Shown one piece after another: positions 44,505-58,992 of a DNA stretch of 58,992 bases. The first letter of the stretch is position 1. The number at the start of each line of letters is the position of its first letter. The notes under the pieces are model-generated. The model was not told the DNA's origin and ran no database searches. It saw nothing but the letters and a program-made list of their open reading frames with translations. Both the position numbers and the translations under genes were made by a program. The DNA is from Romeriopsis navalis LEGE 11480. Lineage in GTDB: Bacteria; Cyanobacteriota; Cyanobacteriia; Leptolyngbyales; Leptolyngbyaceae. Location: assembly GCF_015207035.1 (NCBI RefSeq), contig NZ_JADEXQ010000029.1, positions 1 through 58,992 of the forward strand. The letters are read 5' to 3'.

Positions 44505-47500
44505 ATGATCGCTTCCGCTCATCAGTTACGCCCCACAGTCAACGGTTACACCCTTTGTGAAATCCTCCATCAGGGAAGCCAAACTGCTGTATATCGGGCA
44601 GTTGAAGATGCGAACCAAACTTCAGTGATCATTAAGCTGCTGACGCTTGAATTCCCCAGCCTCAATACCCTCGTTCGATTTCGGAATCAATTCAATATCA
44701 CCCATAATCTGCAATTTCCTGGTGTTGTTACACCACTGAAAATTGTGCCTTGGAGAAAATCCTACGCGATCGTCATGCCCGATGCGGGTGGGCAATCCTT
44801 AGCGAAATACTTAGGGGATCAGCCGCATCTTTCTATCAGCGCGACTTTGGATATTGCGATTCAGCTGGCTGAGGTGCTGCACTATCTTGGCCAACAATGC
44901 ATCATCCATAAAGATATTAAACCCGCGAATATTCTGATCCATCCAGAAACGCACAAGATTCAGTTGATTGATTTCTCGATCGCGACACTGCTCCCAAAAG
45001 AAACCCAATCACTGCAAAGTCCGAACACACTAGAAGGTACCCTGGCCTACCTGGCACCAGAACAAACGGGGCGGATGAACCGTGGCGTTGATTATCGCGC
45101 TGATTTTTATAGCTTTGGGGTGACGCTCTATGAACTATTGACTGGCCAGTTACCATTCCCGACTCAAGACTCGACCGCACTACTGCATTGTCATATTGCA
45201 CAGATTCCTGCTTCTGTGCATCAGGTGCAGCCCCAGGTGCCGATTCAGGTATCGGTGATCGTGAGTAAACTCATGGCCAAGAATGCGGAGGAGCGCTACC
45301 AGAGTGCGTTGGGACTGAAGCTTGATCTTGAGCAATGTTTGCACCAGTGGAAAACGACTGGGCAAATTACCACCTTTGAGTTGGGGCAGCGGGATATGAG
45401 CGATCGCTTCCTCATCCCAGAAAAACTCTATGGACGCGAAGCAGAAGTGCAAACTTTGCTCGATGCCTTTGAACGGGTGAGTCAGGGTAACTCTGAACTG
45501 ATGCTAGTAGCGGGCTTCTCCGGCATTGGCAAAACAGCAGTAGTCAACGAGATCCATAAACCCATTACTCGACAAAAGGGTTACTTTACCAAGGGTAAGT
45601 TTGATCAATTCAATCGAAATATCCCCTTTTCTGCGTTTGTCCAAGCGTTCCGCAACCTCATGGGCCAGTTGCTGGGAGAAGCTGATGCCGTCTTAGGCGT
45701 CTGGAGAAACAGCATCCTAGATGCGGTGGGGGAAAATGGGCAAGTACTAATCGAAGTCATTCCAGAGCTGGAACATATTATTGGTGAACAGCCAGCAGTA
45801 CCTGGACTGCCGGGAGTTGCCGCCCAGAATCGTTTCAATTTGCTCTTTAGCAAGTTTATTCAGGTTTTTACCACTCCAGAACATCCGCTTGTTCTCTTTT
45901 TGGATGATCTCCAATGGGCTGACTCTGCTTCGCTCAACCTATTGCAATCCCTGATGGCTGATTCCCAGCTAGGGCATCTCCTAGTCCTGGGCGCATATCG
46001 CGACAATGAAGTGTCTCCAGCCCATTCGCTGATGTTGGCATTAGCAGCGCTGAAAACCCAAGATGTAATCATCAACCGGCTCACACTAGAACCACTCGCA
46101 TTAGGTGATGTCGGACAATTTGTTGCGGATGCCTTGTTATGTCAGCCGCAGCTAACAACAGCACTCTCAGAGTTGATTTATCAGCAGGCCCAAGGCAATC
46201 CATTTTTCACGACCCAGCTGCTGCAGGGACTCTATGACGATGGCCAAATTCACTTTGATGAAGCGGTTGGGTATTGGCAATGTGACCTGAGCCAGATGGC
46301 GCTTGCGGAAGATGTCGTGGCATTTATGGAGACTCGGTTGCGAACGCTGCCAAAACAGACCCAAGCGGTATTGCAAGTTGCTGCTTGTATCGGTAACCAA
46401 TTTGACTTGGCGACATTAGCAGTAGTCTGTGAAAAATCTCAGGAAACGGTTGCTCAAGATTTATGGCGATCGCTCCAATCGGGGCTGATTGTGCCAGAAA
46501 ATCAAACCTACAAATTGTTCCTGGGCAACGATCAAACAAATCCCTTGACAATCGAGAGTGGCTGTAGCTATCGCTTTCTGCATGATCGGGTTCAGCAAGC
46601 GGCTTATGCTCTGATTGAAGCCACCCATCAAGCGGCGCTCCATCTCAAGATCGGGCAGCGTTTGCTCCAGCAACTCGACGATCATTCCCAAAATGAGATT
46701 TTCAATGTTGTCAATAATCTCAATAAAGCCCATGCTTTATTGAACCCGCAGGAACAGCGACAACTCGCTGAACTGAACTTACAGGCAGGCCAACAAGCGA
46801 GACTCTCATTGGCTTACCAAGAGGCTGCTACCTATTTCGAGCAAGGCATTGATCTGATCGTGCCTGAAGGCTGGGACGTGCAATATAACCTTCTGCTTGA
46901 ACTGCATGCTGAACTGGTCAATGTGCAATTTTTAAGGGGAGAGTTTGAGGCGGTTAGAGCAACCAGCACCAATGCCTTGACCCATGTTCAGTCAACCGCC
47001 GATGCCTTGCCCATTTATATTTCACAAATATCGAGTGATCAAGCTCAAGGGAAGATGCTGGAGAGCTTTGACCTCGGTCTCCAAGTATTAGACTCTCTAA
47101 GTGTGACAATACCAAGGTCGGTGCATCAGGATGGTGTACAACAAAAACTGTATCAAATCCAAACTGAGTTCCAAGCCAAAACGATTCAAGCATTGCTTGA
47201 CCTCCCTCAAAATCAAGATCCGCAATTTTTGAGCACTCAAGAACTACTAACCGTGATGGTGGGCTATGCCTATAAATCTAGACCGGAGCTGTTATCCATC
47301 ATCGTCGGTGAGCAGGTTTCCCTGCTGATGCGCCATGGCAATATTCCTGCCTCGGCATCGATCTATGCGCTCTATGGCATGTTGCTTAGTGGTTCTCAAG
47401 ATTTTGAATCTGGCTTTTTTGCTGGGGAAGTCGCCCTTGCCATCAGAGAACGCTATCCGGCCAAACAATTTGAGATGCGAGTGCGAAATCTGGTTTATTC

Positions 47501-50500
47501 CTACATCACGCCTTGGAAAGCATTACTCCAAGATTGCCTCTCCCCTTTGAAACAGGGTTTCAACCTCGGCTTGGAATCCGGGGATCTTGAATATACGGCT
47601 TACGGTATCAACCACTATATCCAATTTCTTTACTTTGCCGGCATTGATTTATCAACGGTTGAGCATGAGATGTCAACCCATAGCACAGTTCTGGCCGCTT
47701 ATAGGCAAGAAGGTGTTCTTCAAGGGGTTCGAGTTTTCCATCAAGTGGTTTGGAATTTGAGTCATGTTAGTCCTTGCCCCTGGGAACTAGAAGGTGAAAT
47801 TCTTCGAGAATCTGACTGTGTAGAAGCTTGGCGAGCAGAAAATTTAGGCTTCTTTCTGGGAGTGCTTTACATTAGCAAATTAGTGCTCGCCGTTTTATTT
47901 GATAATTCGACCTTAGGTCTAGACTATGCAGAAAGTGCTAATGCTCACTATGAGGGGTTAACGAGAGAATTTCAGATCTCATACTTACACTGCTATCGAG
48001 CCCTGGCACAGTTAGGCGTACTAGAAACTGCCCAACTAGCGGATTTAGAAGAGCAAGCAGACGAGGTAGCTCAAGTCACAACTGATTTGAACATGCTAGA
48101 AAAATTTGCTAGCTATGCTCCCATGAATTTTCAGCACCAGGTGGACTTAGTTCGGGCTGAACGCTATCGGGTTTTGGGACAGCGCTTAGAGGCAATGGAT
48201 GCTTATGACCAGGCGATCGCCGGCGCAAAAGAAAACCAGTACACCCAAGAAGAAGCCCTAGCCAACGAACTTGCCGCGAAGTTCTACCTCGACTGGGGGA
48301 AAGACAAAGTTGCGGCGGGTTACATGCAAGAAGCATACTACTGCTATGCCCGCTGGGGTGCACACGCCAAAACCGCTGACCTAGAAAAACGCTATCCCAA
48401 TTTGCTGCGGCCGATTCTTCAGCAAGCAACGCCGCCATTCGCCGATCCTTGTGCAACGCTGAGCAGCATCGCGCCGCTCAATCTATCCGTACAGTCTACG
48501 GCCAGCATTACCTCGACGGCGATCGATAGCATTAATCAATCCCTTGATCTGGCGACAATTTTTAAATCCGCCCAAGCCCTCACAGAGAGTATTGACCTAG
48601 GTGAGTTGCTGGAAAAACTCGCGCTGATGATGTTGCAAACTGCCGGAGCCGATCACTGTGCCATTGTGATTCCCGATGGACAAGGGCTTTGGCAAGTACG
48701 GGCCAGGGCAACATCTAAAACCATAAGTCTGACACCGGAGCCGTTAGACAATCGTTCAGCATTACCAATCCAGTTGATTCAGTATATTAAAAATACCCGA
48801 GAGATCGTGGTACTGGATGATCGCAATCATGATGCGGCTTTAGTCGGTTCCTACTTCCAAAATCATCGATCCTGGAGTGCATTGGGTGCTCCGATCGTCC
48901 ACCAGAATCAACTGATTGGGGTGCTTTACTTACATAATCAAGCCACCGCCGGAGTCTTCACCCACGATCGCATTACCGTCCTCAACTTCCTCTGTGCGCA
49001 AGCGGCGATCGCCCTCGATCATGCCCAGCTTTACCGGACGCTGGAGCAGCGGGTTGAAGACCGCACCCATTCACTACAGGAAAGCCAAGCCGCCTTAGCC
49101 AAGCTAAATTATGAGTTGGAAGCCCGTGTCACCGATCGGACAGCCCAGCTTGCCGATTCCGAAAAGCGGTTGAAGACGCTGTTTAATGAAACAGCCGATG
49201 CCATTTTCTTATTAGGTCAGCAAGGATTTCTTGATTGTAATCAGGCCGCCCTTGAGCTGCTGGGATATGACCATAAGGCAGAAGTTTTAGCACTTCATCC
49301 CTACCAAATTTCACCGGAGCGACAGCCGGATGGCCAACTTTCGGCAGAGAAGGCAGCCCGCTTAAATCAAGAGGCTTTCCAGCACGGTAGTTTAAGGTTT
49401 GAATGGCTAATTCGCCGCCGTAGTGGAGAGAATTTTTGGACAGAAATCACTCTTACGTCTGTTCAGTATCCGGAAGAAACGATTCTGCACTGTAGTGCCC
49501 GCGATATTAGCGATCGCAAACGACTTGAAGCAGAACAACAACGACAGTTGGACATCCTGGAAAGTACACCAGACTTTATCGGCACATGCAATCCGAATGG
49601 AAAAATTCTATATCTCAATCGGGCTGTGAGAAAGTTGTTGCAGCGCGATGACAACGAGCCTGTGAGCCGCGTCAGTATTTCGGAACAACACCCAGCTTGG
49701 GCAGTCACGATTATTATCAATGAAGCATTGCCGGAAGCGGCCCAAAATGGCATATGGCACGGAGAAACAGCGCTATTGAATGGGAATGGGCAAGTAATTC
49801 CAGTCTCTCAAGTGGTGATTGCACACAAATCAACCAGCGGTGAAGTCGAGTATTTCTCTACGGTCATGCGTGATATGAGCGATCGTAAAACAGCCGAAAA
49901 ATCCCTACAAGCCAGCGAGTTAAAATTCCGAACGCTCTTATCCAACTTAGATGGTGTGGTCTATCGCTGCCTAAATGATCCAGCCTGGACAATGGAGTTT
50001 ATGAGTGATGCCATTACCAAACTGTCGGGTTACCCAGTCTCTGACTTTATTAATAATCGAATACGTACCTATGCCAGTATTATTCATCCGGATGACCTAG
50101 GGTTAGTCGATGAGGCGGTAAATCAGGGAATTGCTGCGCAACAATCTTTTACAGTGGAGTATCGCATTATTCATCGCGATGGCGCTTGGCGCTGGGTTAG
50201 AGAAAACGGTAAAGGCATATTTGATCACACAGGTAAACTCGAATGTTTGGAAGGTGTAATTTTTGATGTGAGCGATCGTAAAGCAGCGGAGCAAGCCCTA
50301 CAGCTCAAACAAAATCACTTGGAAGCGTTGCTGGATAATATCCCGCATATGGCTTGGATTAAAAACGAGCAGAGTCGATTTATCGCGGCTAATCGAGCCG
50401 TAGCAGAAGCGACTGGTTTCTCAACCGCAGCGCTTGTTGGTAAAACCGACTATGACATCTGGCCTGAGCCATTGGCTAAGGCTGTGCGTGCTGATGACTT

Positions 50501-52592
50501 TGCAGTTCTACAGTCTGGCCAGCGAAAAGTTGTGGAAGAACAGATTCCCCATGCCGATGGCACGTCTGTTTGGTTAGAAACAACAAAAACACCGTTCAGA
50601 AATGCTAATGGAGAATTCGCTGGAACCGTTGGGATTGCAGCCGATATTAGCGATATCAAAGCCGCCACGCAAAAAATCCTGGAGTCGCAAAAGTTCTTAC
50701 AGACGGTCCTCGACACGTTTCCTCTGGCAATTTTCTGGAAAGATCGTGAATCGCGCTACATTGGTGTGAATCAAAACTTTGCCCGGGATGCTGGCTATAG
50801 CAAGACGGAAGATATTGCGGGTTTGACGGATTTTGATCTGCCATGGTCGGAAGCTGAGTCGCAAGCCTATCGCGCCGATGATCAAGCGGTGATGCTGTCT
50901 GATACAGCGAAGATCGGCATCATCGAAACTCAAATCCAAGTGGATGGGACTCAGGTTTGGCTAGAAACCAATAAACGACCGTTGCATGATCTCGATGGTA
51001 ACGTGATCGGCGTCATGGGGACTTATCAAGATATTAGCGATCGCAAACAGGCAGAGTTACGTCTCAGGGAAAGCCAGGTTCAGTTTAGGAACATGACCGA
51101 AAATGTCCCAGGGATGATTTATCGGTGGGTCATGCATCCCGATGGCAGTCGGGCGTTTCTCTATGTCAGTTCCAAGGTCCGGGAACTCTGTGAACTCGAA
51201 CCGGCAGCGATTCTCCAACAGGAAACTCTGATATGGGAGAAAATCCATCCTGATGATATTTCCGGGCTACAAGCGGCAATTGCGGTTCATACTCAGAGTT
51301 TGCAATCTTTTAGCCATGAATTTCGCCTAATGCTGCCCCGAAAAGGGCTCCGATGGGTCCAAATTATTTCCCAACCCGAACAGTTGGAAAATGGTGGAGT
51401 TATTTGGGATGGCGTTTTGGTTGATATTAGCGATCGTAAAGCGATCGAAGAGGATCTAGCTCAAAGCGAAGCATATCATCGCAATTTATTTGAGCAGTCT
51501 GCGATCGGACTGCTTTTGTGCCGAATGGACGGCACCTTTATCTATGGGAACACAGCCTTTGCGGATATTCTTGGGCGTGAAAAAGACGAATTAGCAGACT
51601 TAAGCTATTGGGAAATTACACCTGAAAAATATGCTGAAGATGAACAGAGACAACTCAAAGCATTGGAGGAGTTTGGATGTTATGGTCCCTACGAAAAAGA
51701 GTATATCCATCAAAATGGGGCCCTGATTCCCGTTAGACTATCTGGTGTCATCGTTTCTCGCCATGGCGAGAAACTGATTTGGTCAAGTATCGAAGATATC
51801 AGTGATCGCAAGGCTGCAGAAGCCACACAAAAGGCGACGAATGAACGCTTAGCCATCACTAACCAAGAACTGGTGCGTGCGACCAAACTCAAAGATGAGT
51901 TCCTAGCGAATATGAGCCACGAATTGCGCACCCCGCTGAATGCGATCCTGGGTATGAGTGAAATCCTCAGTGAAGAGCTTTATGGCAATCTGAATCAACA
52001 TCAGCAACAGCATGTGACAACGATTGCTAGCAGTGGCGAACATTTATTGGCTCTAATCAATGACATCCTCGATGTCTCAAAAATTTCAGTGGGTCAAGTC
52101 AACTTAGAATTTAGCCAAGTCGTCCTTGCTCAAATCTGTGATAATGCCCTGACTCTGGTTCGTCAACAAGCCCAAAAGAAATCGCTCAATTTGACACTAA
52201 CGATCGCCCCGCAAATTGACTATGTGATGGCAGATTATCGGCGACTGTTGCAGGCGATCGTCAATCTGTTATCGAACGCGGTCAAATTCACGCCCGAGGG
52301 TGGGGCAATTGAGCTTAGCCTGACTCTCCAAGCTCAACTGGCGGAATATCCCGGCAACTGGCTGTGTATTGCAGTGACGGATACCGGCATTGGGATTGCT
52401 GCCGATCAACAGTCGCGGTTATTCCAACCGTTTATGCAAGTGGATAGTAGCCTCAACCGGAAATATGAAGGCACAGGACTCGGATTAACCCTCGTGAAGC
52501 AGATTGCGGAAATGCATGAAGGCTTTGTTCAGATGGACAGCGAGTTAGACAAAGGCAGTTGCTTCCAGATTTTCATTCCCTATAAACAATAG
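44505..52592 (+). CDS. Giant Ser/Thr and histidine hybrid kinase
   Basis: The 2695-residue protein has the HstK layout known from Nostoc. Residues 10-285 form a Ser/Thr kinase with HKDIKPAN near 135 and DFSIAT instead of DFG. Residues about 310-600 form an AAA-type ATPase (GFSGIGKT near 339, LFLDDLQWAD near 464). A helical TPR-like region of about 700 residues follows. A GAF domain spans about 1360-1505. Seven PAS domains follow, ending near 1668, 1792, 1922, 2049, 2178, 2308 and 2433, each closing with (D/E)(I/M/V)SDRK or a variant. A HisKA domain has the phospho-His in NMSHELRTPL near 2471, then an HATPase to the end. There is no attached receiver, so a separate regulator is needed. The gene is alone on its strand. 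Confidence 0.93.
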   Translation: MIASAHQLRPTVNGYTLCEILHQGSQTAVYRAVEDANQTSVIIKLLTLEFPSLNTLVRFRNQFNITHNLQFPGVVTPLKIVPWRKSYAIVMPDAGGQSLAKYLGDQPHLSISATLDIAIQLAEVLHYLGQQCIIHKDIKPANILIHPETHKIQLIDFSIATLLPKETQSLQSPNTLEGTLAYLAPEQTGRMNRGVDYRADFYSFGVTLYELLTGQLPFPTQDSTALLHCHIAQIPASVHQVQPQVPIQVSVIVSKLMAKNAEERYQSALGLKLDLEQCLHQWKTTGQITTFELGQRDMSDRFLIPEKLYGREAEVQTLLDAFERVSQGNSELMLVAGFSGIGKTAVVNEIHKPITRQKGYFTKGKFDQFNRNIPFSAFVQAFRNLMGQLLGEADAVLGVWRNSILDAVGENGQVLIEVIPELEHIIGEQPAVPGLPGVAAQNRFNLLFSKFIQVFTTPEHPLVLFLDDLQWADSASLNLLQSLMADSQLGHLLVLGAYRDNEVSPAHSLMLALAALKTQDVIINRLTLEPLALGDVGQFVADALLCQPQLTTALSELIYQQAQGNPFFTTQLLQGLYDDGQIHFDEAVGYWQCDLSQMALAEDVVAFMETRLRTLPKQTQAVLQVAACIGNQFDLATLAVVCEKSQETVAQDLWRSLQSGLIVPENQTYKLFLGNDQTNPLTIESGCSYRFLHDRVQQAAYALIEATHQAALHLKIGQRLLQQLDDHSQNEIFNVVNNLNKAHALLNPQEQRQLAELNLQAGQQARLSLAYQEAATYFEQGIDLIVPEGWDVQYNLLLELHAELVNVQFLRGEFEAVRATSTNALTHVQSTADALPIYISQISSDQAQGKMLESFDLGLQVLDSLSVTIPRSVHQDGVQQKLYQIQTEFQAKTIQALLDLPQNQDPQFLSTQELLTVMVGYAYKSRPELLSIIVGEQVSLLMRHGNIPASASIYALYGMLLSGSQDFESGFFAGEVALAIRERYPAKQFEMRVRNLVYSYITPWKALLQDCLSPLKQGFNLGLESGDLEYTAYGINHYIQFLYFAGIDLSTVEHEMSTHSTVLAAYRQEGVLQGVRVFHQVVWNLSHVSPCPWELEGEILRESDCVEAWRAENLGFFLGVLYISKLVLAVLFDNSTLGLDYAESANAHYEGLTREFQISYLHCYRALAQLGVLETAQLADLEEQADEVAQVTTDLNMLEKFASYAPMNFQHQVDLVRAERYRVLGQRLEAMDAYDQAIAGAKENQYTQEEALANELAAKFYLDWGKDKVAAGYMQEAYYCYARWGAHAKTADLEKRYPNLLRPILQQATPPFADPCATLSSIAPLNLSVQSTASITSTAIDSINQSLDLATIFKSAQALTESIDLGELLEKLALMMLQTAGADHCAIVIPDGQGLWQVRARATSKTISLTPEPLDNRSALPIQLIQYIKNTREIVVLDDRNHDAALVGSYFQNHRSWSALGAPIVHQNQLIGVLYLHNQATAGVFTHDRITVLNFLCAQAAIALDHAQLYRTLEQRVEDRTHSLQESQAALAKLNYELEARVTDRTAQLADSEKRLKTLFNETADAIFLLGQQGFLDCNQAALELLGYDHKAEVLALHPYQISPERQPDGQLSAEKAARLNQEAFQHGSLRFEWLIRRRSGENFWTEITLTSVQYPEETILHCSARDISDRKRLEAEQQRQLDILESTPDFIGTCNPNGKILYLNRAVRKLLQRDDNEPVSRVSISEQHPAWAVTIIINEALPEAAQNGIWHGETALLNGNGQVIPVSQVVIAHKSTSGEVEYFSTVMRDMSDRKTAEKSLQASELKFRTLLSNLDGVVYRCLNDPAWTMEFMSDAITKLSGYPVSDFINNRIRTYASIIHPDDLGLVDEAVNQGIAAQQSFTVEYRIIHRDGAWRWVRENGKGIFDHTGKLECLEGVIFDVSDRKAAEQALQLKQNHLEALLDNIPHMAWIKNEQSRFIAANRAVAEATGFSTAALVGKTDYDIWPEPLAKAVRADDFAVLQSGQRKVVEEQIPHADGTSVWLETTKTPFRNANGEFAGTVGIAADISDIKAATQKILESQKFLQTVLDTFPLAIFWKDRESRYIGVNQNFARDAGYSKTEDIAGLTDFDLPWSEAESQAYRADDQAVMLSDTAKIGIIETQIQVDGTQVWLETNKRPLHDLDGNVIGVMGTYQDISDRKQAELRLRESQVQFRNMTENVPGMIYRWVMHPDGSRAFLYVSSKVRELCELEPAAILQQETLIWEKIHPDDISGLQAAIAVHTQSLQSFSHEFRLMLPRKGLRWVQIISQPEQLENGGVIWDGVLVDISDRKAIEEDLAQSEAYHRNLFEQSAIGLLLCRMDGTFIYGNTAFADILGREKDELADLSYWEITPEKYAEDEQRQLKALEEFGCYGPYEKEYIHQNGALIPVRLSGVIVSRHGEKLIWSSIEDISDRKAAEATQKATNERLAITNQELVRATKLKDEFLANMSHELRTPLNAILGMSEILSEELYGNLNQHQQQHVTTIASSGEHLLALINDILDVSKISVGQVNLEFSQVVLAQICDNALTLVRQQAQKKSLNLTLTIAPQIDYVMADYRRLLQAIVNLLSNAVKFTPEGGAIELSLTLQAQLAEYPGNWLCIAVTDTGIGIAADQQSRLFQPFMQVDSSLNRKYEGTGLGLTLVKQIAEMHEGFVQMDSELDKGSCFQIFIPYKQ

Positions 52593-53014: not shown

Positions 53015-53872
53015 TTAACCACCGAAAAACCACTGCGTTCCAGTCGCGAGATAGTAGGCACCAGTCAATAGCAGGGCCACACTACCCAAACGAATAATGC
53101 CTTCGGAATGCTTCAGCAAGTTCCGGCTTTGCTTGGCAAGCCCCGTAAACAAGCTAGCGAGGAAAATCAGCATTGTATAACCCAAGGCGTAGCTCACCAT
53201 CGTTAGCGTCCCCAGCAACTGCGAACCAGATGCTGCCGCTGCCGCCAATACCGCAAACAAAACCGGACTCGCACAAGGCGAACTGACCAGCGCAAAAGTC
53301 AAACCCACGCCAAATGGCCCCGCCGCCTCAGGCGCCCCAATATTAAATGTCGGTAGCGGAATCCGCACAACACCGACCAGCCACAGACCCATGACAACCA
53401 TGATCAGGCCCACGGCGACATTGATATAGCCGCGATATTCCACCATCACCGCCCCAGCAAAGGATGAGACCAAGCCAAACAGGCTCAAAATCACCACCGC
53501 GCCTAAGACAAATGCACCGGCCTTACTAAAGGCATCCCACTTGGACTTAATTTCCAGGGTACCGATGTAGCTGAGGTTGACTGGGAGCAAACCCAGAATA
53601 CAAGGTGAGACACTGGCCAGCAATCCGCCCACAAATGCTAACGGTAATAGCACCAAGGGATTGGCTGTATCCTGCTGGACAAACCACTGCTGATACTGAT
53701 TTTCGACTGTGCCGATGAGCGTTTCGAGCGGCTCACTCAGCACAGGGCCAAATGCGACGACGATCAGCAAGGTCAAGAGGCCGATACCACCATAGATCAG
53801 CCATTGTTTTGTACTTTTTGATAAGCGACGGCGGGTCGGCTGATCGCTGGCGGATTGATGAGATTCAGTCAT
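53015..53872 (-). CDS. ccdA: CcdA/DsbD-like thiol-disulfide membrane transporter
   Basis: I start at ATG 53872 (285 residues); an in-frame start 57 bases upstream is possible. An N-terminal helix with an extra soluble loop (residues about 25-80) precedes six membrane helices. The two redox cysteines are in SVSPCILGLLPVNLSYIG near residue 100 and SSPCASPVLFAVL near residue 205, the CcdA/DsbD-beta pattern. This family passes electrons from cytoplasmic thioredoxin across the membrane. It lies 101 bases downstream of the lipoprotein thioredoxin gene, which is its probable electron acceptor. The target may be c-type cytochrome maturation or metal-linked thiol repair. Confidence 0.92.
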   Translation of the reverse strand: MTESHQSASDQPTRRRLSKSTKQWLIYGGIGLLTLLIVVAFGPVLSEPLETLIGTVENQYQQWFVQQDTANPLVLLPLAFVGGLLASVSPCILGLLPVNLSYIGTLEIKSKWDAFSKAGAFVLGAVVILSLFGLVSSFAGAVMVEYRGYINVAVGLIMVVMGLWLVGVVRIPLPTFNIGAPEAAGPFGVGLTFALVSSPCASPVLFAVLAAAAASGSQLLGTLTMVSYALGYTMLIFLASLFTGLAKQSRNLLKHSEGIIRLGSVALLLTGAYYLATGTQWFFGG

Positions 53873-53973
53873 GGGTTTTGTGGGTTGAAGGATAGCCGGG
53901 AATAGCGTAATTATGCGATCGCACAGCATTCCCGGCTGCGGTTATGGGTTTGAGCGCTTCACTTTGGCCGGAT

Positions 53974-54528
53974 TTAGTTCAGTGCCGCGTTCAACACCGT
54001 TGTGTAATCGTCGATATTCGCATTCTTGCGGTGCTGGGCCAGGATTTTGCCCGTGGCTGGATCAAAGATGGCCACAAGACTAGTTTGGGACTTGTTCTGC
54101 TTGAGGAATTCGCTGAGGCCCAGCTTCTTAGCGGTGGCTTCCGCCTCAGCAACGGTGGACTTATCCGTCACATCCAAAACCACAAAGTTGACTTTGTCTT
54201 TGTAGTCTTCCTTCAGCTTAGTGAGGGTCGGTGCGATCTTCTGGCAAGACTTACACCAGGTGGCGTAGACATCGACGAGCACGGGCTTACCCTGAAGTTC
54301 TTTGGCGAGGGCAACTGTGGTTGCTCCGCCCTTACTAGCACAGGGATTCGCTTTACCGGCACAAGGGTTCTTCGCCGCACAGGGATTGGCTTTACCCGCA
54401 CAAGGATTACTGGCAGCTTCGGTGCTTGAACCAGATGTTTTAGCCGCACAAGGGTTGCTACAAGCCGCGATCGTGCCAAGGCTCAGCATCGAAACCGTAG
54501 CGAGCACTGCAAAATACTTGATTCTCAT
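53974..54528 (-). CDS. Lipoprotein thioredoxin with repeated NPCA motifs
   Basis: The 184-residue protein begins with a lipoprotein signal (MRIKYFAVLATVSMLSLGTIAAC). Residues about 24-66 hold five repeats of the type NPCA(A/G/S)K, giving five evenly spaced cysteines, besides the lipidated one. A thioredoxin domain follows (about 70-184) with the active-site WCKSC in VDVYATWCKSCQKIAP. It should be anchored outside the cytoplasmic membrane. It is paired with the CcdA-like gene downstream, which should keep it reduced. The NPCA cysteines may bind metal or act as a redox relay; neither is established. Confidence 0.88.
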   Translation of the reverse strand: MRIKYFAVLATVSMLSLGTIAACSNPCAAKTSGSSTEAASNPCAGKANPCAAKNPCAGKANPCASKGGATTVALAKELQGKPVLVDVYATWCKSCQKIAPTLTKLKEDYKDKVNFVVLDVTDKSTVAEAEATAKKLGLSEFLKQNKSQTSLVAIFDPATGKILAQHRKNANIDDYTTVLNAALN

Positions 54529-54902
54529 TAGATTATTCGCCTCACGAAAGATTGGGGATTAGGAGCCTGAGTCATCGCCGATGTTCAGGGAAGTTCCGAC
54601 AGTGGATCGTTAGTCTCGCACGACTCTGACGATTTGCACTTAGCTGTTGATATTAATGATTAAAGCGACCGAAAATGAGTCGTAGATGAAGCCCAGATAG
54701 ATTCTTCCTAAAAGTCATGACGAATGCAGCCCAAACGCGCAAGATTCATCGCGTTCCCAGAAATTCAATTGCTATAGTGAGAGTGGCCCACTACCACTGG
54801 TAAATCGCGATTTTCAGCAAAAATTCATCTGGCAATCAGCGCGTGATCATGCGGACCCGCGATGATGAAAGTTAGTTGGATACTATATAGATCTAATCCT
54901 TC
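54529..54902. other. Divergent intergenic region
   Basis: About 375 bases between the divergent thioredoxin lipoprotein and histidine kinase genes. No gene is supported. The promoters of both must lie here; no strong -35/-10 pair stood out. Confidence 0.5.
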
Positions 54903-56372
54903 ATGCCACGCCGATCGCTTGTTAAATCTATTGCAAAACGCTTGCAGCGTCGACGCGCAACCGGTCGGCGGTTTTCTACTTCGTCGCTTCAGTTTCGGTT
55001 GACATTGGAGCTAGTGGTGCTGTCGATCGTCGGTTTGGCCTGCGTCGCGGGTTGGGCCGCTTGGCAAATGGAGCAAAACCTGATTGCCACCCACAAGCAA
55101 ACTTTAGACTATGTTGCGGCCCGCTTCCCTGAGCAGCTCGAGCTATATGCCGAAATGGGGGAAGAAAATGGGTTGGAGCGCACAATCAAACGGGTATCTA
55201 CGTCAGAATTGATGGTGTGGGTCAAGAGTCCCGAGGGCCAACTGATGTCGCAGTCGCCGACCTTAACGCCGGATTCATCAACGATTAAAACAGTGACGGC
55301 CCTAACCGAGGTGCCAAAACGACCGCAAATCGTGCGGGTGGGCGATCGCGATATTGTGCTGTGCAGTCGCGTGATTTCGGTGAATGGGAAGACCTACGGC
55401 AAACTGTATTTGTCTCAAGATGTGACGGCGGATCAGGAAAATCTGACGATGAACCTCTGGCGACTAATGGGGGTGAGTGGACTGACGATCGGCCTGCTCG
55501 TCTTCGCAATTTCCCGGCGGATTCAGCGAGCCTTGCAGCCCTTGGCCCAAATGAGCCAGATTGCCGGGGCGATTTCCGTCGATGACTTGAATGGGGCCAC
55601 GCTGGAACTGCGCCAAGCACCGGATGAGATTTTAGGCTTGGCTCGATCGTTTAATGAAATGTTATTTCGCTTGTCGGGCGCTTGGGAGCAGCAGCGTCAG
55701 TTTGTCGGCAATGTGTCCCACGAGTTGCGCACCCCCCTGTCGGTGATTGTGGGGTATCTCCAAAGCCTTCTGCGCCGGGGGGATAATCTTAGCCCGCACC
55801 AGCAGCAAGCCGTCTCGACGGCAGCGGCGGAGGCGGAGCGGATGACGCGGATGTTGCAGGATTTGTTGGATTTGGCCCGGGTCGATAGCGGCAGTTTGTC
55901 GTTTCGGCAGACGCCGGTGATGCTGAATACGCTGGTGGTGGAAGTGGTGCAGATGACTCAGACTGTGACGCAGCGATCGATTAAAGTAATTGCGACGAAT
56001 GATGATGTGATTGCCAGTACCGATCAAGATCGATTGCAGCAGGTGTTGATTAATCTATTAGATAATGCGATTAAATATTCTACGGATGACGCCAATGTTG
56101 AGTTGATCCTCGAAAAGACCTCCGAGGTTGCTTTGATTCACGTGCGCGATCAGGGTGTCGGGATTCCGCTGGCCCATCAGAAGCGCATTTTTGAGCGGTT
56201 CTACCGGGTGGATGAGGCGATGACTCGATCGCGTGATGGCACTGGCCTTGGCCTCGCGATTGCCAAGAGCCTGACCGAAGGGATGCATGGCCGCTTAAGT
56301 CTGCGATCGCGTCCCGGCGAAGGCAGCGAATTTACGATCACCTTACCCCTGTGGCAGTCCCCCGTATCATGA
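54903..56372 (+). CDS. OmpR-class sensor histidine kinase
   Basis: The 489-residue kinase has a basic N-terminus, a first transmembrane helix near residue 40-60 (LVVLSIVGLACVAGWAAWQ), an extracytoplasmic loop of about 120 residues, a second helix near 190-205 and a HAMP domain. The HisKA phospho-His is in NVSHELRTPLSVI near residue 275. The HATPase has NLLDNAIKYS, DQGVGIP, and GTGLGLAIAKSL. The stop overlaps the start of the response regulator gene as ATGA, so the pair is coupled. The signal is unknown. The closest known group is the general cyanobacterial two-helix HK type. Confidence 0.95.
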   Translation: MPRRSLVKSIAKRLQRRRATGRRFSTSSLQFRLTLELVVLSIVGLACVAGWAAWQMEQNLIATHKQTLDYVAARFPEQLELYAEMGEENGLERTIKRVSTSELMVWVKSPEGQLMSQSPTLTPDSSTIKTVTALTEVPKRPQIVRVGDRDIVLCSRVISVNGKTYGKLYLSQDVTADQENLTMNLWRLMGVSGLTIGLLVFAISRRIQRALQPLAQMSQIAGAISVDDLNGATLELRQAPDEILGLARSFNEMLFRLSGAWEQQRQFVGNVSHELRTPLSVIVGYLQSLLRRGDNLSPHQQQAVSTAAAEAERMTRMLQDLLDLARVDSGSLSFRQTPVMLNTLVVEVVQMTQTVTQRSIKVIATNDDVIASTDQDRLQQVLINLLDNAIKYSTDDANVELILEKTSEVALIHVRDQGVGIPLAHQKRIFERFYRVDEAMTRSRDGTGLGLAIAKSLTEGMHGRLSLRSRPGEGSEFTITLPLWQSPVS

Positions 56373-57049
56373 GCGCCCATATTCTCCTGCTTGAAGATGA
56401 CCCAAAGCTAGCGCAGTTCGTGGAAATGGAACTGCGTTTAGAAGGCTATGAAGTCACCCTCGTGACCAATGGCATGGATGGGTTGCAGCAGGCAAGGGAA
56501 ACATCGCCGGATCTGTTGATTCTCGACTGGATGACGCCGGGAATTTCGGGTTTGGATGTCTGTATGCGGCTACGATCGACCGGGACCCAAGCGCCGATTA
56601 TTATGCTGACTGCCCGCGATGAGATTCCCGATCGGGTGGCGGGCCTCAATGCCGGGGCTGACGACTATGTGACGAAGCCCTTCAGCATTGAGGAATTGTT
56701 GGCACGGGTAAATGCCCATTTGCGCCGTTTACAACCAGAATCTTCCGAGGGCTTGACGTTTGAGGATTTAGCGCTGAACTGCATTACCCGCGAAGTTTAC
56801 CGCGCTGGTCAATTGGTGCAATTGACCGCGAAGGAATTTGATTTGTTGGAGTTTCTGATGCGCCACCCGCGCCAAGTAGTGAGCCGGGAGCAAATTCTGG
56901 AGCAGGTTTGGGGCTATGACTTCGTGGGGGAATCGAATATCATCGAAGTTTATATGCGGGCGTTGCGGATCAAGCTGGAAGCGAGTCAACCGCAACGCCT
57001 GATTCAGACTGTGCGCGGTGTGGGGTATGCGCTGCGTGAGCCGAGTTAA
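56369..57049 (+). CDS. OmpR/PhoB-type response regulator
   Basis: I start at ATG 56369, which overlaps the kinase stop by four bases; this gives 226 residues, against a start 18 bases upstream. The receiver has LLLEDDPK (acidic pocket at 9-11), phospho-acceptor Asp53 in LILDWMTPG, and Lys in YVTKPFS. The winged-helix domain (residues about 125-226) has LTAKEFDLLEFLMRHPRQVV, then the recognition region ESNIIEVYMRALRIKLE and RTVRGVGYALR-like end (QTVRGVGYALREP). It should be a DNA-binding transcription factor controlled by the kinase before it. Confidence 0.96.
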   Translation: MSAHILLLEDDPKLAQFVEMELRLEGYEVTLVTNGMDGLQQARETSPDLLILDWMTPGISGLDVCMRLRSTGTQAPIIMLTARDEIPDRVAGLNAGADDYVTKPFSIEELLARVNAHLRRLQPESSEGLTFEDLALNCITREVYRAGQLVQLTAKEFDLLEFLMRHPRQVVSREQILEQVWGYDFVGESNIIEVYMRALRIKLEASQPQRLIQTVRGVGYALREPS

Positions 57050-57119: not shown

Positions 57120-58992
57120 CTACCGCCACAACCCCGCGACCCAATCCACTGCCTGCTCCCACCAAGACGACTGGCGTACCGGCTGACTCGCCTCCAACCA
57201 CGGACGCCGATCGCAAGCGGCCTTCGCATCCCGCCCAATCTTGACTAGCTCCTCACCCGTCACCACCGTCTCTGGTGCATTCAGTAAGGGATGGTACTGA
57301 AGCCGCTCACAGGCCAGGTGCATAAAGCCCGACCAATCACCGGGCCAGAGGCGCAGCGTCTGGTCACTACTGCCACTGACAATGCGTTTGCCATCGGGGC
57401 TAAAGGCGACAGACCAGACATAATCTGAATGTCCTTTGAGCGGTTGTCCGATGGGTTGTCCGGTTTGTGCATCCCAGAGGCGCAGCGTATCGTCCCAACT
57501 GCCACTGACAATGCGTTTGCCATCGGGGCTAAAGGCGACAGAAGCGACATCATTTGAATGTCCTTTGAGCGGTTGTCCGATGGGTTGTCCGGTTTGTGCA
57601 TCCCAGAGGCGCAGCGTATCGTCCCTACTGCCACTGACAATGCGTTTGCCATCGGGGCTAAAGGCTACAGACAAGACATCATTTGAATGGCCTTTGAGCG
57701 GTTGCCCGATGGGTTGTCCGGTTTGTGCATCCCAGAGGCGCAGCGTATCGTCCCAACTGCCACTGACAATGACGTAGCCTAACCCTGACGGGGTCGCTAC
57801 GCGAACGGGGCTAAAGGCGACAGACACGACACCATTTGAATGTCCTTTGAGCGGTTGGCCGATGGGTTGTCCGGTTTGGGCATCCCAGAGGCGCAGCGTC
57901 GCGTCCCAACTGCCACTGACAATGCGTTTGCCATCGGGGCTAAAGGCCACAGAAACGACATAATTTGAATGTCCTTTGAGCGGTTGCCCGATGGGTTGTC
58001 CGGTTTGTGCATCCCAGAGGCGCAGCGTCGCGTCCCAACTGCCACTGACAATGCGTTTGCCATCGGGGCTAAAGGCCACAGAAACGACATAATTTGAATG
58101 TCCTTTGAGCGGTTGCCCGATGGGTTGTCCGGTTTGTGCATCCCAGAGGCGCAGCGTCGCGTCCCAACTGCCACTGACAATGCGTTTGCCATCGGGGCTA
58201 AAGGCCACAGAAACGACATAATTTGAATGTCCTTTGAGCGGTTGCCCGATGGGTTGTCCGGTTTGTGCATCCCAGAGGCGCAGCGTCGCGTCCCAACTGC
58301 CACTGACAATGCGTTTGCCATCGGGGCTAAAGGCCACAGAAACGACATAATTTGAATGTCCTTTGAGCGGTTGCCCGATGGGTTGTCCGGTTTGTGCATC
58401 CCAGAGGCGCAGCGTCGCGTCCCAACTGCCACTGACAATGCGTTTGCCATCGGGGCTAAAGGCCACAGAAACGACATAATTTGAATGTCCTTTGAGCGGT
58501 TGCCCGATGGGTTGTCCGGTTTGTGCATCCCAGAGGCGCAGCGTCGCGTCCCAACTGCCACTGACAATGCGTTTGCCATCGGGGCTAAAGGCCACAGAAA
58601 CGACATAATTTGAATGTCCTTTGAGCGGTTGCCCGATGGGTTGTCCGGTTTGTGCATCCCAGAGGCGCAGCGTCGCGTCCCAACTGCCACTGACAATGCG
58701 TTTGCCATCGGGGCTAAAGGCCACAGACAAGACCTCATTTGAATGTCCTTTGAGCGGTTGTCCGATGGGTTGTCCGGTTTGTGCATCCCAGAGGCGCAGC
58801 GTATCGTCCCTACTGCCACTGACAATGCGTTTGCCATCGGGGCTAAAGGCCACAGACAAGACATCATTTGAATGTCCTTTGAGCGGTTGCCCGATGGGTT
58901 GTCCGGTTTGTGCATCCCAGAGGCGCAGCGTCGCGTCCCTACTGCCACTGACAATGCGTTTGCCATCGGGGCTAAAGGCGACAGACCAGACA
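57120..58992 (-). CDS. WD40-repeat protein (5' end outside window)
   Basis: The frame is open from the right edge to the stop at 57120, so the N-terminus lies beyond 58992. Thirteen WD40 repeats of 43 residues are visible, with the core SVAFSPDGKRIVSGS and TLRLWDAQTGQPIGQPLKGHS. Several are almost identical. The last unit is degenerate (SSDQTLRLWPGDW), followed by a 70-residue tail with WSGFMHLACERLQYHPLL, which is typical of the C-terminus of cyanobacterial WD40 proteins with an N-terminal ATPase (NACHT-type) or kinase. The missing part probably holds such a domain. One repeat carries a 34-base foreign insert (57772-57805). It is likely a large-ligand or protein-binding surface. Confidence 0.9.
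   Translation of the reverse strand, partial: VWSVAFSPDGKRIVSGSRDATLRLWDAQTGQPIGQPLKGHSNDVLSVAFSPDGKRIVSGSRDDTLRLWDAQTGQPIGQPLKGHSNEVLSVAFSPDGKRIVSGSWDATLRLWDAQTGQPIGQPLKGHSNYVVSVAFSPDGKRIVSGSWDATLRLWDAQTGQPIGQPLKGHSNYVVSVAFSPDGKRIVSGSWDATLRLWDAQTGQPIGQPLKGHSNYVVSVAFSPDGKRIVSGSWDATLRLWDAQTGQPIGQPLKGHSNYVVSVAFSPDGKRIVSGSWDATLRLWDAQTGQPIGQPLKGHSNYVVSVAFSPDGKRIVSGSWDATLRLWDAQTGQPIGQPLKGHSNYVVSVAFSPDGKRIVSGSWDATLRLWDAQTGQPIGQPLKGHSNGVVSVAFSPVRVATPSGLGYVIVSGSWDDTLRLWDAQTGQPIGQPLKGHSNDVLSVAFSPDGKRIVSGSRDDTLRLWDAQTGQPIGQPLKGHSNDVASVAFSPDGKRIVSGSWDDTLRLWDAQTGQPIGQPLKGHSDYVWSVAFSPDGKRIVSGSSDQTLRLWPGDWSGFMHLACERLQYHPLLNAPETVVTGEELVKIGRDAKAACDRRPWLEASQPVRQSSWWEQAVDWVAGLWR
57772..57805. repeat. Small palindromic element within a WD40 repeat
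   Basis: Thirty-four bases replace the ten bases found here in every other repeat, a net gain of 24 bases that keeps the reading frame. The element has CGTAGC and GCTACG ends that pair as an inverted repeat. On the protein it changes DGKRI into VRVATPSGLGYVI. It looks like one of the small dispersed palindromic repeats of filamentous cyanobacteria. No second copy was seen in this window. Confidence 0.6.
57961..58605 (-). repeat. Near-identical 129-base tandem repeats
   Basis: Units of 129 bases (43 codons) follow each other with landmarks 129 bases apart (57951, 58080, 58209, 58338, 58467, 58596). I read the five intervals as identical in sequence. They encode WD40 blades of the gene at 57120-58992. 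The flanking units differ by a few bases each. Confidence 0.9.

Follow-up and report, generated by a model that had tools for sequence, protein, structure and literature searches.

Pairs of a CcdA-type membrane protein and a thioredoxin are common in cytochrome maturation. One described system of this kind is formed by SoxV, which, in the account that PMC10451225 gives with reference to Appia-Ayme and Berks (2002), is a CcdA orthologue that reduces the periplasmic thioredoxin SoxW. ScsC of Caulobacter, an envelope protein with a thioredoxin fold, binds Cu(I) (PMC8900818). The locus reported here also joins CcdA to a thioredoxin, which carries an arm of cysteine repeats. It lies in a window of 58,992 nucleotides (the whole stretch of DNA that was analysed) from Romeriopsis navalis LEGE 11480, contig NZ_JADEXQ010000029.1. 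Its features, and the two other arm genes of the genome, are as follows.

53974..54528, minus strand: NPCA-arm thioredoxin, lipoprotein-like, 184 aa (ORF; PF00085, E 5e-14)
54460..54528, minus strand: signal peptide with putative lipobox TIAAC, Cys23 (by sequence reading)
54331..54456, minus strand: arm of five NPCA[AGS]K units, residues 25-66 (sequence and genome-wide pattern count with control)
54244..54258, minus strand: WCKSC active site, residues 91-95 (sequence; W, C and C invariant, n=56 homologues)
53015..53929, minus strand: CcdA-type membrane electron carrier, likely true start Met20, giving 53015-53872 (PF02683, E 6e-11; PF13386, E 3e-9)
54671..54690, minus strand: promoter box TTCATCTACGACTCATTTTC, 11-bp direct repeat TCATCT-N5-TCATTT (motif discovery in 27 upstream regions)
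54903..56372, plus strand: sensor histidine kinase, divergent, heavy-metal/CopS-like below cut-off (PF00512, PF02518, PF00672)
56351..57049, plus strand: OmpR-type response regulator, NblR-like below cut-off (PF00072, PF00486)
Contig C5: stand-alone arm lipoprotein, near a cupredoxin-like lipoprotein and a CDO-like cupin
Contig C12: arm joined to a YHS-domain protein (NF041384, 167.6 bits, cut-off 70)

Five NPCA(A/G/S)K repeats between a lipid anchor and a WCKSC thioredoxin domain had been described in the initial annotation, and the ORF, the shuffles and the genome control all agree with this, the anchor (IAAC, Cys23) being putative and read by eye. The units are NPCAAK (25-30), NPCAGK (41-46), NPCAAK (48-53), NPCAGK (54-59) and NPCASK (61-66), and the cysteines of the 184-aa protein are at positions 23, 27, 43, 50, 56, 63, 92 and 95. 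The even spacing that had been claimed for the arm cysteines holds for the last four (7, 6 and 7 residues) and not for the first two. The repeats are not due to chance, since none of 20,000 composition-shuffled arms contained two or more NPCA units and the 6.47-Mb genome has 0 copies of the reversed control pattern. By comparison, 25 matches to the NPCA[x]K DNA pattern are present there, 24 of them within the three arm genes, all of whose products have putative export signals as judged by eye. Among relatives, 194 of 199 NPx[AGS]x[KQN] units have cysteine at the Cys position. Because this residue is kept while the choice between TGT and TGC (126 and 68), the Ala codon (four in use) and the fifth residue are free to change, the arm thiol is under selection.

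The AlphaFold model gives a pLDDT of ~97 for the thioredoxin domain and 45-50 for the arm, so that the domain is predicted to be ordered and the arm disordered. In a structure comparison, the modelled domain matched Deinococcus Trx2 (Z 11.7, rmsd 2.3 over 94 residues). The CxxC motif holds the only cysteines of this domain in relatives. Residues 101-156 are without any proline, and Thr149, invariant in 56 of 56 sequences, sits at the expected place of the cis-proline, just before strand 151-156 of the model. The claim that the cis-proline is missing rests on the absent proline and the AlphaFold model, as the profile-profile alignment to cis-proline thioredoxins ended before the region and MAFFT misaligned across an insertion. 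The identity as a classical thioredoxin was rejected because of this absence and because the score against TIGR01068 (50.6 bits) is below the cut-off of 96.8; the curated models for DsbE/CcmG, ResA and TlpA were all far below their cut-offs. According to a passage of PMC2757866 citing Su et al. (2007), a cis-proline may hinder metal binding at CxxC. Its apparent loss here is a lead toward metal binding at this site, not a test of it.

The CcdA/DsbD_TM gene lies 44 nt downstream of the thioredoxin gene on the same strand, and its product has Cys110 and Cys219, both in Pro-Cys motifs. That the next gene is CcdA-like, as had been proposed, was upheld by the match to PF02683 and by conservation of the pair: a same-strand CcdA gene is present at 43 of the 44 thioredoxin loci collected, with most gaps below 300 nt. 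In addition, 10 of these loci adjoin a cytosolic thioredoxin gene and 5 a gene for thioredoxin-disulfide reductase (above the cut-off of TIGR01292, E 4e-119), which means that the whole electron path can be clustered. A Pseudanabaena galeata plasmid holds, in a row, two thioredoxin-domain genes, CcdA, an FAD-dependent oxidoreductase and another thioredoxin-domain gene. The system II arrangement, with ccdA next to ccsB or ccsA, was not found at the window locus; a second ccdA lies on contig C4 next to a CcsB/ResB-like ORF (CcsB by reading). This separate canonical pair makes a role of the window locus in cytochrome maturation unlikely.

Among 42 genomes of the order, four others have the armed thioredoxin, with 2, 3, 6 and 7 units, and further ones have the same thioredoxin-CcdA operon with no arm. 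In a phylum sample of 386 genomes, the thioredoxin orthologue was found in 37 and a strict two-unit arm in 24; the orthologue was present in 18 of the 24 arm genomes (Fisher 5e-16, relatedness not corrected), and the reversed control pattern was absent from the rows inspected. The 44 thioredoxin loci divide into 26 armed and 18 unarmed. Since the pair occurs with no arm at ~40% of loci, the thioredoxin has other substrates. One locus (L121), cut by a contig end, was scored unarmed though the arm is present, and reassigning it changes nothing of substance; five loci are near-copies, and the cyanobacterial counts ignore relatedness. The armed state is clustered on a 55-row tree, with at least 9 changes compared to a shuffled mean of 18.3 (0 of 500 as low; near-copies contribute). 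Repeat number and cysteine conservation in relatives had been set beforehand as the test of the initial annotation, and the outcome was divided. The number varies from 0 to 11 across thioredoxin loci, which goes against it, whereas the constancy of the cysteines and the firm link with CcdA speak for it.

The arm has companions of its own in cyanobacteria. Of the 26 armed thioredoxin loci, 17 have a gene for a CDO-like cupin alongside, against none of the 18 unarmed ones; such a gene also adjoins 4 of 5 arm-YHS loci and 5 of 5 solo arm loci. The cupin tracks the arm, not the attached thioredoxin. It is present in 24 of 24 arm-positive and 60 of 362 arm-negative genomes (Fisher 7e-18, relatedness not corrected). 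When the tables were compared by eye, cupin and arm were on one contig within ~6 kb in 22 of the 24, the exceptions being genomes G321, with the arm at a contig end, and G338. The cupin profile matches 3-mercaptopropionate, cysteine and mercaptosuccinate dioxygenases in the PDB with E values down to 3e-14, and His112, His114 and His166 are invariant in six sequences; the score against Pfam CDO_I, 20.5 bits, is below the cut-off of 23. By this 3-His motif and homology, the cupin is assigned as a putative thiol dioxygenase. One copy (G083:C1:593015-594763, ~6 kb from locus L126) is split in two with ~1.1 kb between the parts, perhaps by an insertion.

A two-component system is the other companion. 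The histidine kinase scores 233.6 bits against the heavy-metal sensor model TIGR01386 (cut-off 292.6) and the response regulator 266.8 bits against the NblR model (cut-off 300), and both families recur beside arm-thioredoxin, arm-YHS and solo arm genes. Motif discovery gave CATCTRAGACTCATTTTC with a log-likelihood of 118, compared to 63-69 in six shuffled sets. The box is exact at armed thioredoxin genes in three genomes, usually once per genome, and two other genomes have it at arm-YHS genes with 1-2 mismatches. With up to two mismatches allowed, neither of the two remaining arm genes in R. navalis showed the box, and enumeration gave no exact 6-mers repeated at 10-12 bp. A second copy (L132 559-578) lies upstream of an exported DUF2808-looking protein, a possible further regulon member. 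In window coordinates, a 2695-aa serine/threonine kinase/ATPase/GAF/PAS/histidine kinase fusion (44505-52592) is upstream of the operon, and a WD40-like protein with nearly identical tandem repeats (57120-58859) is at the contig end. On contig C12 a putative secreted protein whose sequence after the signal opens with HGTVISPASRV (L005 28-1035), by eye similar to the copper-dependent AA10 lytic polysaccharide monooxygenases, is encoded just upstream of the arm-YHS gene.

Plasmids carry compact versions of these neighbourhoods. On pAQ7 of Picosynechococcus sp. PCC 7002, histidine kinase, response regulator, cupin and a 93-aa solo arm gene are together. The arm gene (L286 9995-10313) appears unannotated in a gene table that is incomplete, with a hypothetical protein annotated over it on the opposite strand, and the pAQ7 expression paper that was found deals with other genes. 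A plasmid of Leptolyngbya sp. BL0902 has an FAD oxidoreductase, arm, DoxX, cupin, response regulator and histidine kinase.

A scan of named genomes gave at least 118 arm stretches. Among the matches listed, arms occur in Beta-, Alpha- and Gammaproteobacteria, Rokubacteria, Nitrospinae and cyanobacteria, and outside the cyanobacteria they are fused to SoxA/TsdA-type cytochromes (PF21342) or cytochrome P460 (PF16694) or stand alone. YeeE-type sulfur transporters are near proteobacterial arms at no fewer than 10 loci. DUF6969 (PF22308), which has an invariant YYYHAH...EHGHFH motif and no PDB match, is the proteobacterial counterpart of the cupin as arm companion. An armed gene lies beside it on the same strand in 32 of the 38 loci holding DUF6969 among the matches listed, and when the test was reversed, with DUF6969 as the starting point in 274 genomes of a class sample, an arm lay within 1.5 kb of 11 of 16 high-scoring and 2 of 11 low-scoring genes. 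DUF6969 was rejected as a relative of the cupin (hhalign probability 0.1). Two further families turn up repeatedly next to arms in cyanobacteria as well as in Proteobacteria: a cupredoxin-like one and DUF3179, which in cyanobacteria was identified by reading. The former is exported and has no Pfam match (L048 5839-6339, L049 7261-7740, L142, L245 2140-2637); a cupredoxin fold is not claimed for it, as the model has a pLDDT of 63 and there was no PDB match below E 0.15. A protein of the FGE-sulfatase type (formylglycine-generating-like) is encoded beside some proteobacterial arms (L191, L193, L239, L245, L264).

The initial annotation had seen a variant of trans-membrane thiol reduction. Such a role fits the families, but the arm is not peculiar to the thioredoxin-CcdA pair and should rather be regarded as a separate module that has its own companions: cupin or DUF6969, two-component system and promoter box. 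The distribution and the companions point to an unrecognised thiol- or metal-handling module. Our preferred reading, held tentatively at a probability of about 0.45, is an envelope thiol-reduction unit in which CcdA serves the thioredoxin and the thioredoxin keeps NPCA arms reduced so that they can take up thiophilic metals or oxidants. By analogy with known families, electrons would pass from NADPH through TrxB and cytosolic Trx to CcdA, which would deliver them on the other side of the membrane to the anchored WCKSC thioredoxin. The thioredoxin might then keep its own arm and those of the C5 lipoprotein and the C12 YHS protein reduced. In the periplasm or lumen, the reduced arms could perhaps be a flexible thiol sink that takes up oxidants or thiophilic metals, with Cu(I) as a first guess, and the adjacent two-component system would have them produced when needed. 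That the arm is the substrate of the thioredoxin and binds metals or oxidants is something we infer with little direct evidence. The near-constant CcdA neighbour, the clustered reductase path, the constancy of the cysteines, the disordered arm beside an ordered thioredoxin domain, the apparent loss of the cis-proline, the Cu(I) precedent of ScsC and the occurrence of the arm on three proteins with putative export signals are all consistent with the thiol sink. So are the box common to arm-thioredoxin and arm-YHS genes and the kinase, regulator and cupin families flanking all three kinds of arm gene. The unarmed pairs count against it, as do the solo and YHS arm loci that have no thioredoxin-CcdA pair nearby, the lack of a recurrent copper transporter beside arms and a cysteine spacing unlike that of metallothioneins. 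A plain metal sink would also leave the tight link with a thiol-dioxygenase-like cupin unexplained.

In a rival reading, the NPCA cysteines would carry sulfane sulfur (persulfides) like the carrier cysteine of SoxY, with CcdA and thioredoxin releasing or resetting them as SoxV and SoxW might, given the reduction of SoxW by SoxV reported in the cited part of PMC10451225, and with the cupin oxidising small thiols or persulfides in the cytoplasm. The presence of the cupin in every arm genome, its dioxygenase matches, the fusions to SoxA/TsdA-type cytochromes and the nearby YeeE-type transporters argue for such sulfur handling; no sulfur-oxidation genes were seen beside cyanobacterial arms and a kinase of the heavy-metal type does not suggest sulfur, and we consider it rather unlikely. 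It is less probable again that the locus is a plain pair for reducing disulfides in the envelope or for cytochrome maturation, and that its low-complexity linker is incidental. The frequency of CcdA-thioredoxin pairs in cytochrome maturation and the lability of arm length (9 state changes on the 55-row tree) would fit, but the separate ccdA beside the CcsB/ResB-like gene on C4, the cysteine constancy and an arm found on unrelated domains with its own companions would not. The lowest probability goes to modification of the arm before export, in which the cytoplasmic cupin (cyanobacteria) or DUF6969 (Proteobacteria) would modify the NPCA cysteines, by oxidation or in another way, to yield a new ribosomally made metal ligand comparable to bufferins. 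Both proteins look cytoplasmic by eye and have conserved histidines, and in each the companion link follows the arm, in the cupin counts over armed, unarmed, YHS and solo loci as in the reverse test. However, the known cupin thiol dioxygenases use free thiols or N-terminal cysteines as substrates and are not known to use internal cysteines; the cupin is also present in the 60 genomes with no detected arms, and DUF6969 and the cupin have no detectable kinship.

A broader proposal, improbable as a whole, is that the NPCA repeats are an undescribed mobile envelope cysteine module, on a thioredoxin, YHS protein, cytochrome or nothing, which would be matured or serviced by the cytoplasmic cupin thiol dioxygenase in cyanobacteria or DUF6969 in Proteobacteria. 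An odd linker becomes a testable module, a cysteine repeat on unrelated exported proteins across phyla. DUF6969, a domain of unknown function, gains a predicted partner and the cupin becomes a companion thiol-dioxygenase family; the module adds a putative regulator and a DNA box (TTCATCTNNGACTCATTTTC), and Picosynechococcus sp. PCC 7002 offers a tractable model. The module may bring to light an overlooked way in which photosynthetic envelopes handle metals, sulfur or redox. No paper naming the NPCAAK, NPCAGK or NPCASK repeat was found in the literature searched, nor any on DUF6969.

Compared to SoxV/SoxW with SoxYZ, as far as the cited source describes them, the likeness is that CcdA goes with an envelope thioredoxin which probably acts on a cysteine in a flexible segment; here there are many NPCA cysteines, on the thioredoxin itself, no Sox genes were seen, and neither soxYZ nor soxAX was noticed among the recurrent neighbours of cyanobacterial arm loci. 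The Scs system likewise combines a membrane reductase (ScsB) with an envelope thioredoxin-fold protein and is linked to copper, but ScsC is a trimeric DsbC-like isomerase with no repeats, and the CcdA here lacks the extra domains of ScsB. CcdA with ResA, CcmG, TlpA or HCF164 in cytochrome maturation shares the anchored CxxC thioredoxin-fold partner; the window locus differs in missing the curated models, in the apparent lack of a cis-proline, in its cysteine arm and in the separate ccdA-ccsB locus. The C12 arm protein resembles the YHS domain-containing (seleno)proteins of NF041384, being above the cut-off, and its plasmid relatives match the YHS part only, with the arm unmatched. Metallothioneins have clustered CXC/CXXC cysteines, in contrast to the CX5C/CX6C spacing that sets the arm apart from them. 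Bufferins and other MNIO-modified cysteine-repeat peptides (PMC12452194) are also exported and clustered with unusual metal-dependent enzymes; that survey does not mention an NPC motif. We rejected membership of this group because MNIO (PF05114) has 0 matches in the R. navalis genome and is absent from 10 of the 11 arm genomes tested, the one copy elsewhere not being near the arm. If the broader proposal is true, the NPCA arms would constitute a new class of metal or sulfur ligands that are exported and modified by enzymes, resembling the bufferins but served by different enzymes.
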